Part shown: positions 1,973 through 63,079 of the stretch, in pieces
Position numbering within the stretch: the first letter of the stretch is position 1
How the letters are laid out: every line of letters starts with the position of its first letter
Assembly (NCBI RefSeq): GCF_000024185.1
Contig: NC_013790.1
Coordinates: 829,501-893,500 of the forward strand
DNA length: 64,000 nucleotides
Source: Methanobrevibacter ruminantium M1
GTDB taxonomy: Archaea > Methanobacteriota > Methanobacteria > Methanobacteriales > Methanobacteriaceae
Direction of reading: 5' to 3'
Made by a program: the position numbers and the translations under genes
The notes under the pieces: model-generated
Databases searched by the model: none
What the model was told of the DNA's origin: nothing
The model's input: only the letters and a program-made list of their open reading frames with translations

Positions 1973-2941
1973 TTAGATTATTGTTGTTGTGAGTGTTGCT
2001 ATTTCTGCTTTGCTCATTTTTGTTGCTTTTGCTATGATGTCTGGTGATACATCTAGTTCGGCTAGGCTTTTTACGATTTCTTCTCTTTCTTCTTCTCTTC
2101 CTTCTTCATAGGTTTGTTTTCGTTCTTCTTTTGTTAGGTATCCTTGGAAGACTTCTTCTTTTCCTTCTGATTGCATGCTTATCACCTTGGCTATTTTGGC
2201 TTTTTCGTTGTCGTTTAGGAGTTCTGTTGCAAGTACGAATTGTATGGATTTGATTTCAATCAACTTTTCCCTGCTTATTCTCCCATCCAACTTATTTGTC
2301 ATCTCAGCTACTCTTTTTAATAACTGTCTCTGCTTTTTCTTTTTTCGAGTCATTAAAGGACTAATTTCAAGATAAACAAAATCCTCCTCTGTAAACTCTT
2401 CCTCTTCATTCTCTATTTTATTATTTGTCCTATTTAAAGCTTTATTATAATCCATATCGGTTAACGATTTGACATGTATAGTAAACCAGTAGTCTCCATA
2501 CTTATTTTCAATTTTATCCCTCTTTATCGGCTCTTTTGAAACAACATAAAGATGTATGTCCTTTTTTTCTTGATGAGCTATGCTGGCCCTATAAAGCCCA
2601 AACCTTAAAATATCCTCTAGCTTTAATCTGCTGCTTTGAAATTCAATAATATAGATTCTCTTCTTATAAACTCTTATAATAATATCAGAATGCAATTCCC
2701 TAAAAAAAGCATTTATAATTTCACTATCCACAAACTCTTCAAATATTGCTCCCTTTTCCAATATCTCCAAAAACCCATTGGGATTTTTCTTAAATGAGGT
2801 TTTAAGGATCTTATCATAGGGCTTATGGACTTTTATCCTCTTGATTTTCTCTTCAAAAGAGTTGAATCCTTTATGGTTTAATATACTGTAGTCTAAAATT
2901 TTTTCACCTCCTTTATCTTTATTCATTGGGGCGATTTTCAT
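1973..2941 (-). CDS. Rpn-family PD-(D/E)XK nuclease (recombination-promoting nuclease/putative transposase)
   Basis: The N-terminal half carries the family core: SDIIIRVYKKRIYIIEFQSS gives the conserved D and the ExQ signature (EFQ) of the Rpn branch of PD-(D/E)XK nucleases. The C-terminus (LAELDVSPDIIAKATKMSK) is the helical tail usual for the family, preceded by a charged stretch rich in E, K and R. Rpn nucleases cleave DNA and raise RecA-independent recombination in E. coli; here the role is inferred. Candidate starts are ATG at 2941 and 2926, neither with a ribosome binding site. A perfect GGAGGTG lies inside the frame at 2911-2905, eight bases (counted from GGAG) before an in-frame ATT at 2899, which may be the real start. 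Confidence 0.8.
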   Translation of the reverse strand: MKIAPMNKDKGGEKILDYSILNHKGFNSFEEKIKRIKVHKPYDKILKTSFKKNPNGFLEILEKGAIFEEFVDSEIINAFFRELHSDIIIRVYKKRIYIIEFQSSRLKLEDILRFGLYRASIAHQEKKDIHLYVVSKEPIKRDKIENKYGDYWFTIHVKSLTDMDYNKALNRTNNKIENEEEEFTEEDFVYLEISPLMTRKKKKQRQLLKRVAEMTNKLDGRISREKLIEIKSIQFVLATELLNDNEKAKIAKVISMQSEGKEEVFQGYLTKEERKQTYEEGREEEREEIVKSLAELDVSPDIIAKATKMSKAEIATLTTTII

Positions 2942-4605: not shown

Positions 4606-4687
4606 TTGATTCTTAACCATGTATGCCTATATTTTATTTGATTAGATCATATATTGTTTGTTGATTAAATTATTTGGAGGTGAAATG

Positions 4688-30920: not shown

Positions 30921-31511
30921 TTAATCCTTAACTAGCCGTATACCACAAATTTTACAAATGATATCTTCTTCTTTTACTTTGTTACCACAATTTGGACAGT
31001 ATTTATTTAATTTAGGAGTGCTTGCTTTAATTTTCTGATTAAGAAATATGTCTTCTCTGATTCTCTTGTTTTGAATGAGGCAAGCTTTGTCCCAATCGTT
31101 TTCCATAAGGATTTTCTTCACATAATAGGCTTCAACCATTGTATTATACTTTCCAAAATGTTCCTCTCCCCTTATTACACAGAACTTTCTCTCCTTATGG
31201 TCAAAGACTATTTCTCCTTCTCTTTCCTTTTTATTGAATTTCAATCCTTTAATCTGTCCTCTTGGACGATGTTCTGGAAAAGGAGGAAGTTCCATATTCT
31301 CATACTTGTTTGGAAGGTCACATTCTACAAGTAGGTCATAGTCGAACTTGCAATAAAATAAGCAGTCCCTTTCATAGAGTGCGTCAGATAATTTGCTGAA
31401 TTCTCCATAATCCTTATTGTTATGTTTTATACGATATTTTTTACCAGACTTGACTATATTTCTATAAAAATATCTTATATCAGTAGATTCTATCTTAACA
31501 CCTCCATTCAA
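30921..31511 (-). CDS. Zinc-ribbon protein with two repeated N-terminal modules
   Basis: A protein of about 190-196 residues. The C-terminus is a zinc ribbon (YCPNCGNKVKEEDIICKICG, two CxxC). Before it are two similar units: KYRIKHNNKDYGEFSKLSDA with LYERDCLFYCKFD, and KFCVIRGEEHFGKYNTMVEA with YYVKKILMENDWD, each reading like an AP2/integrase-type DNA-binding sheet plus helix. DNA binding is therefore possible but unproven. The frame has no ATG near its start: TTG at 31511 lacks a ribosome site, whereas GGAGGTG at 31505-31499 stands before an in-frame ATA at 31493. Confidence 0.65.
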   Translation of the reverse strand: MNGGVKIESTDIRYFYRNIVKSGKKYRIKHNNKDYGEFSKLSDALYERDCLFYCKFDYDLLVECDLPNKYENMELPPFPEHRPRGQIKGLKFNKKEREGEIVFDHKERKFCVIRGEEHFGKYNTMVEAYYVKKILMENDWDKACLIQNKRIREDIFLNQKIKASTPKLNKYCPNCGNKVKEEDIICKICGIRLVKD

Positions 31512-61711: not shown

Positions 61712-63079
61712 ATTACTGATCAATCTTCACATCCATTTAGGGAAAAAACGGATAGAGCAATTAAAAAGAGACCTCCATGGAAGGAGTATAACCTCCACAT
61801 TGTTGTCTTCCTTTTGGTTGTTATCTCCATGGCTATCGGTGTAAAGGAGATTAAGATTACCGACACCATCAGTATCCTATTATTACCTTTGATTTATGCC
61901 TTGGTTTTAGGTTTAGCCCTTTATTTGGCAAAGCCTATTAAGTTTATAGGCAGAAAGCAATCTAAGGTAGCTGAAGGGGCTATGGTTCTATTTATTGGTG
62001 TATTAATTACCAAATTGGCTATTTCAAGCGGTCAAGCCATAGCCAGTATTTTCCAAGTGGGGCCTGCTCTTCTCTTGCAGCAGATAGGTAATTTAGGTAC
62101 TCTTATAGCATTGCCTATAGCACTCTTTTTCGGCTTTAGAAGGGAAGTCATCGGTATGACAAGTTCCATTTGCCGTGAACCTAACTTAGGAGTCATTATC
62201 GACAAATACGGTTTTAAATCTCCAGAGACCCGCGGAGTATTGGCTGTTTTTGTTATCGGATCCATTTTAGGTACTCCATTCATCAGCTTCCTATCAAGCA
62301 TAAGCGCTTCACTGATTCCTATGCACCCATATGCCTATGCAATGGCTTCAGGTGTGGGAAGCGCAAGTATGAATGCCGCTGCCCTTGCTCCTTTGATGCA
62401 TATGTTTCCATCAATGGCTACTGATTTGGAGGCTTTTGCCGGATGCAGTAACCTTCTTTCATTCTGTTTCGGTATCTATATGTGTATATTTGTATCATTG
62501 CCTCTTGCAGAGCGTATGTATAAGTGGCTATCCCCTCATATAGGCCATGACAAAGAGGAAACAATTGACGATGAGTATGCAATCGAAGGGGTAAAGCATG
62601 ATAAGTATGCATCTAAGGAAGAGTTAAGTTCAGGAAAGATTAAAAGATGGGCTACATTCCTTCTTATATTCTCATTCACCGTTGCTGTAGGAAATTATAT
62701 AGGATATCACACTTCATTGCTGGATTCATTCATTGGAATGATCATTATTTCACTTATAACCATTCTGGGAATGTCTCTTGAAAGGATAATTCCTTGGAAT
62801 ATTCAATCAATCATTTATATAAGCCTGATTGGTATAATTGTGGCTATTCCAGGCATGCCAACTGCTGATTTCATTGTGCGTTATGTTTCTCAAATTGATC
62901 TGACCACAATATGTACTGCATTCCTGGCTTATGTAGGTATAGCTATAGGAAATGATTGGGAAGAGTTTAAAAAGATTGGTTGGAGAGGAATCATTATCAC
63001 TCTAATTGTAATTTCTGGAACTTATTTATGTTCAGCAGGAATTGCTCATTTGACTTTAGTGGCTACTGGAATGGTATAA
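61712..63079 (+). CDS. DUF3100 membrane protein
   Basis: A multi-pass membrane protein of the DUF3100 family with about ten helices: IVVFLLVVISMAIGVKEIKI, ISILLLPLIYALVLGLALYL, AEGAMVLFIGVLITKLAISS, IGNLGTLIALPIALFFGFRR and AMASGVGSASMNAAALAPL are typical. Conventional starts are TTG at 61814 or ATG at 61829, but both fall inside the first helix. The frame is open further left and codes for a natural N-terminus (REKTDRAIKKRPPWKEYNLH), with AGGTGGG (61700-61706) before an in-frame ATT at 61712. I give that as the likely start. Transport substrate unknown. Confidence 0.75.
   Translation: MTDQSSHPFREKTDRAIKKRPPWKEYNLHIVVFLLVVISMAIGVKEIKITDTISILLLPLIYALVLGLALYLAKPIKFIGRKQSKVAEGAMVLFIGVLITKLAISSGQAIASIFQVGPALLLQQIGNLGTLIALPIALFFGFRREVIGMTSSICREPNLGVIIDKYGFKSPETRGVLAVFVIGSILGTPFISFLSSISASLIPMHPYAYAMASGVGSASMNAAALAPLMHMFPSMATDLEAFAGCSNLLSFCFGIYMCIFVSLPLAERMYKWLSPHIGHDKEETIDDEYAIEGVKHDKYASKEELSSGKIKRWATFLLIFSFTVAVGNYIGYHTSLLDSFIGMIIISLITILGMSLERIIPWNIQSIIYISLIGIIVAIPGMPTADFIVRYVSQIDLTTICTAFLAYVGIAIGNDWEEFKKIGWRGIIITLIVISGTYLCSAGIAHLTLVATGMV

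Follow-up and report, generated by a model that had tools for sequence, protein, structure and literature searches.

A conserved AUA/AUU/AUC codon as the probable translation start of a zinc-ribbon gene in Methanobrevibacter ruminantium M1

Where does translation begin when a strong Shine-Dalgarno (SD) sequence is followed, at the proper distance, by ATA in place of ATG? The question is raised by a gene for a zinc-ribbon protein in a 64,000-nucleotide stretch of the genome of the archaeon Methanobrevibacter ruminantium M1 (NC_013790.1, positions 829,501 to 893,500; this whole stretch is referred to as the window, and positions are counted from its first letter). An earlier note, made from the letters of the window, had offered two possibilities, initiation at this AUA or recent mutation of what used to be an AUG. 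The layout that it described, GGAGGTG-TTAAG-ATA in frame with the protein, is present at the positions given there; along the minus strand the order is TTG (31511-31509), GGAGGTG (31505-31499), the five-base gap TTAAG and ATA (31493-31491).

31509..31511, minus strand: TTG, rejected alternative start, without an SD of its own and 5' of GGAGGTG
31499..31505, minus strand: Shine-Dalgarno sequence GGAGGTG, kept in most orthologues of the genus
31491..31493, minus strand: proposed AUA start codon, ATN in all 70 orthologues
30921..31493, minus strand: coding sequence from AUA to stop for a 190-residue zinc-ribbon protein, a 190-codon open reading frame (ORF) in frame with the ATA

The distance between GGAGG and ATA is 7 nucleotides (nt), which is the modal distance between GGAGG and ATG (15 of 32) in an 864-kb sample of the same genome comprising 40 stretches of 20 kb and the window. 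The spacing is therefore usual, as had been claimed, but "many genes" overstates the case for the full heptamer: GGAGGTG-N5-ATG sites number only about ten in the genome, a full heptamer SD before ATG being uncommon, and the ORF that follows the example given at 4676 (GGAGGTGAAATGATG) is short, at about 24 codons. The bare pattern GGAGGTG-N(3-7)-ATH, where H is A, C or T, is not enriched genome-wide (60 sites versus 77 for the reversed control) because GGAGGT also encodes Gly-Gly. This count is uninformative alone, and the case that the site is more than chance comes from its orthologues.

Conservation of the codon in orthologues

Of 139 genomes of the family that were searched, 96 gave matches, counting weak ones, the weakest of which cover the zinc ribbon only. 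We compared the DNA of 70 orthologues, which represent four genera of the Methanobrevibacter lineage. In the alignment, the codon at the position of the ATA (codon 0) is ATT in 49, ATA in 13, ATG in six and ATC in two, with no others, so that AUA, AUU or AUC (AUH) is found in 64 of the 70. An ordinary internal isoleucine would be expected to give way to valine, leucine and the like. At codon 0 the residues other than isoleucine are methionine in six of six cases, whereas in 11 internal isoleucine columns of the same alignment they are methionine in 0 of 141. The six species with AUG are scattered, accounting for five changes on a maximum-likelihood tree, and species with AUH lie in both main clades. 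By this comparison, the AUH start dates far back and has been retained in all four genera, with a third base that drifts among A, U and C and is occasionally G.

Conservation of the protein sets in at codon 0, where most orthologues read [I/M]-N-S-Q-E-I-R-Y-F-Y-R; residue 5 after the start is isoleucine in 68 of 70 and isoleucine or leucine in all, and residue 6 is arginine in every one (70/70). Over codons -1 to -5 there is no conservation of a protein sequence: codon -1 has 14 different readings, one of them a stop, and codons -2 and -3 track the letters of the SD, not a protein. The upstream extension with conserved residues that the earlier note had considered as a contrary case is seen in none of the 70 orthologues. 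Downstream of codon 0, the earliest in-frame ATG lies at +198 and is codon 67, in keeping with the earlier statement that none occurs for some 70 codons. Codons 1-65 have, within the genus, 0.028 nonsynonymous (pN) and 0.617 synonymous (pS) changes per site, a pN/pS of about 0.045, and the stretch ahead of this first ATG is therefore translated.

From these observations we conclude that translation of the zinc-ribbon gene very probably starts at the AUA at 31493, with a probability of roughly 0.9, in agreement with the first of the two possibilities raised in the earlier note. The leader of the gene gave no match to an RNA family in Rfam, and its predicted folding was nothing unusual (z = 0.06). 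A five-codon out-of-frame ORF (ATG GAG GTG TTA AGA TAG, 31507-31490, minus strand) runs through the SD and has its stop on the AUA; it is common within the genus but not beyond it.

Competing starts

The most serious competitor, although quite unlikely, is a start at a conventional upstream codon (TTG at -18 in the genus, ATG or GTG at -9 in the g9 group of genomes), which would make the AUA or AUU an internal isoleucine codon. Such codons exist, and gene finders would pick them: eight species have a start-type codon at -18 (TTG in the genus) and others lack it, the TTG being absent in L009, L010, L011, L018, L019, L020 and L021, and a conventional codon stands at -9 in 42 orthologues. However, in 12 AUH orthologues an in-frame stop is followed by no ATG, GTG or TTG before codon 0, and no conventional upstream start can therefore serve there; in L022 the frame opened by an ATG at -9 is closed by TAA at codon -1. 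Elsewhere, M. ruminantium M1 included, the upstream codons lack an SD. When SD strength was scored by how well the bases at the usual distance pair with the 16S tail, taking AGGAGGTGATC as the standard consensus since the genome's own 16S 3' end was not in the stretches read, codon 0 was preferred in 42 of 42 comparisons with the -9 codon and in eight of eight species with a -18 codon (50/50 overall). The -9 ATG or GTG usual in the g9 group is itself part of the SD, which there is GGTGATT or GGATGATT. The lack of protein conservation upstream of codon 0 and the replacement of isoleucine by methionine at this column only, in six of six cases, also speak against an upstream start.

The remaining alternatives carry still less weight. 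An out-of-frame AUG at -14, which opens the five-codon ORF described above, might feed ribosomes into the gene by termination-reinitiation or frameshifting; this AUG is present in M. ruminantium M1 and most species of the genus, in the context AATGGAGG, but it is absent in L010, L011 and L019, the arrangement differs in the g9 and g6 groups, and it overlaps the SD, of which it may be a by-product. We regard this route as very unlikely. Next to no probability attaches to a recently mutated AUG or a sequencing error in a dying gene. A close relative (L008) does have ATG at codon 0, but this explanation is refuted by the orthologues, 64 of 70 of which have AUH in a large number of independent assemblies; the gene is under strong purifying selection with its SD kept, and the occurrence of ATA in ten further species of the genus, assembled separately, excludes a base-call error. 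Initiation at codon 67, with the upstream part untranslated, has only the position of the earliest in-frame ATG in its favor and is equally improbable: codons 1-65 form the most conserved block of the protein, a constraint that refutes it, and the +198 ATG is not among the next starts in a number of species.

Several points nevertheless weigh against initiation at the AUA. The conventional in-frame codon at -9 is found in as many as 42 of the 70 orthologues, though within the SD. Support for the AUA start comes from comparative genomics only, and a role for a weak start is something that we infer. The gene for the initiation factor aIF1 in this genome starts at ATG, with AAGGAG upstream. Finally, the enrichment in bulk is modest: a test for AUH starts that pooled all ATH codons of the M. 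ruminantium M1 sample and of G041, a g9 genome, was not significant (p = 0.13), and the class of AUH starts is therefore small.

The protein and a possible role for its start

The 190-residue protein has a single recognised domain, a C-terminal zinc ribbon. Its matches to Zn_ribbon_3 (PF13248) score 34.4 and 34.5 bits, above the curated cut-off of 27, and 32 of 34 orthologues match. An AlphaFold2 model built from 34 orthologues (mean pLDDT, the predicted local distance difference test, 73.9; medium confidence) contains two beta-beta-beta-alpha units that recall DNA-binding domains of the AP2/integrase type.

31353..31457, minus strand: first beta-beta-beta-alpha unit, residues 13-47 (AlphaFold2 model)
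31101..31214, minus strand: second beta-beta-beta-alpha unit, residues 94-131 (AlphaFold2 model)
30933..31007, minus strand: zinc ribbon, residues 163-187 (Pfam PF13248)

No Pfam match and no significant fold match in the PDB was obtained for an AP2/integrase-type domain, a profile search gave no significant relative of solved structure, and no NCBIfam family covers the protein. The protein is probably a nucleic-acid-binding regulator. In most loci of the genus the gene adjoins the convergent indolepyruvate oxidoreductase genes iorAB.

For initiation at the AUA, the strong SD (GGAGGUG) would position the 30S subunit with Met-tRNAi (anticodon CAU) over the codon, the tRNA presumably pairing with A1 and U2 and leaving the third base mismatched. 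The first residue would then be methionine, although AUA reads as isoleucine, and AUA, AUU and AUC would alike be accepted by virtue of the SD holding the codon in the P site. Output would be expected to fall below that of AUG and to be kept there by selection. We give perhaps even odds to the suggestion, drawn by analogy, that the purpose of the AUH start is a low output of this probable regulator, tied to the stringency of initiation.

Conserved AUH starts are known in bacteria. In Staphylococcus aureus, AUA and AUU starts with extended SDs give about 10-30% of AUG output in reporters, and of the two newly found conserved genes with such starts, one codes for a repressor and the other for a putative zinc-finger protein (PMC13009471). 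There is a close likeness to ccpN (AUA) of S. aureus and Bacillus subtilis and cvfC1 (AUU) of Staphylococcus, which have a conserved non-canonical start, an extended SD at proper spacing and, as product, a regulator or small zinc-finger-like protein (PMC13009471). Those genes differ in being bacterial, with IF3 as the fidelity factor, and in having been shown by Ribo-Ret and reporters, whereas the archaeal case is made by comparative genomics, and the proteins are unrelated to the zinc-ribbon protein. In Escherichia coli, infC and pcnB start at AUU, which limits expression, and IF3 discriminates against its own start (PMC9410913); the zinc-ribbon protein, unlike the infC product, is no known initiation factor. 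An infC-like loop, in which the archaeal fidelity gene is itself AUH-started, was considered and ruled out: aIF1 here starts at AUG, and the genome therefore holds no archaeal copy of the infC feedback loop. The sigR gene of Streptomyces likewise encodes a regulator whose expression is held down by a non-canonical start of a kind that annotation misses, although its codon is GTC and its control bacterial, through IF3 (PMC5472188). A weak start offset by a strong SD is also known for GUG and UUG (Belinky et al., 2017, PMC5622118); the present case differs in that AUH is conserved for whole genera.

For archaea, the starts listed in a review of initiation are AUG, GUG and UUG (PMC7531240), and aIF1 in Sulfolobus favors discrimination against non-canonical starts (PMC6237735). 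Our literature search on methanogens and other archaea turned up no relevant report of an AUU or AUA start, so that an archaeal example is absent from the literature searched, though older or subscription papers could hold one. The published M1 annotation was produced by Glimmer with manual inspection (PMC2812497). Standard gene finders allow little beyond AUG, GUG and UUG, and if AUA and AUU starts are deeply conserved in this lineage, whose archaea are abundant in rumen and gut, the annotation probably misplaces some of its gene starts.

Other candidate AUH-started genes

Further cases were sought by a scan of the own-genome sample and of all GGAGGTG sites. In the former, in-frame ATT codons near gene starts with a strong SD amount to 8 of 749, versus 23 of 9097 for other codons, an enrichment of about fourfold (Fisher p = 0.002). 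The G041 sample showed no significant AUH enrichment by itself and yielded one good candidate, GatB (L221:7856, plus strand), with an apparent ATT start after TTGGAGG and ATG ATG at +12/+15; the profile match begins at the ATT.

Three genes of M. ruminantium M1 could be followed in orthologues. An EcfA/CbiO-type ABC transporter ATPase (L138:12879-13709, minus strand; G000:C1:1619709) has a GGAG(G) SD followed by ATT in all 14 of its 14 genus orthologues, and three g6 genomes and one g3 genome share the ATT (L186-L199, L230-L232, L235); in its paralogues the same residue is encoded by ATG, whereas in g12 genomes an ATG lies upstream of an internal isoleucine. SfsA (L151:17296-18045, minus strand; G000:C1:2573045) has, among loci L156-L170, ATT in M. 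ruminantium M1, L157, L158 and L165 and ATC in L168, with TAA at -12 in the first three, while the remaining species of the genus use TTG or ATG at the same residue. A MurT-like ligase (L128:18100-19446, plus strand; G000:C1:918100) has ATT in three of three near orthologues, diverged relatives aligning only past the first residue. Four more candidate gene starts of the form GGAGGTG-N5-ATA/ATT/ATC occur in L096, L106, L107 and L108; the first three of these have signal-peptide-like N-termini, and the L107 candidate has no conventional start back to the stop. The AUH-started genes of this genome thus form a small set, with the EcfA-type ATPase, SfsA, the MurT-like ligase and others, and the zinc-ribbon gene is the best-conserved case among them.

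Archaea are not known to have IF3. The AUH starts would mean that a mismatch at the third base is naturally tolerated in archaeal initiation, which relies on aIF1 in place of IF3, and they provide natural test sites for the start-codon judgement of the archaeal ribosome. Control of AUH genes by the level of aIF1 is possible. That the whole set forms a regulon, in which a change of stringency such as an altered aIF1 level shifts the zinc-ribbon regulator, the EcfA-type ATPase, SfsA, the MurT-like ligase and the others together, seems to us rather doubtful; if true, it would be an archaeal counterpart of IF3 control.

Two further candidates lie in the window itself.

2897..2911, minus strand: Rpn-like gene with a possible AUU start, GGAGGTG-AAAAA-ATT
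61712..63076, plus strand: candidate membrane-protein ORF with an ATT start after aggtgggatttt, without ATG, GTG or TTG back to a stop at -30

For the Rpn-like gene (at 2899), which had been put forward as a second instance of the same arrangement, GGAGGTG-AAAAA-ATT is present as described, but there are also two ATGs in frame, 27 and 42 nt upstream of it. A search for its orthologues gave nothing usable, only one paralogue at 34% identity and one relative at 36%, with N-termini unaligned; an AUU start is possible. The ATT of the membrane-protein ORF at 61712-63076 is preceded by AGGTGGGATTTT.
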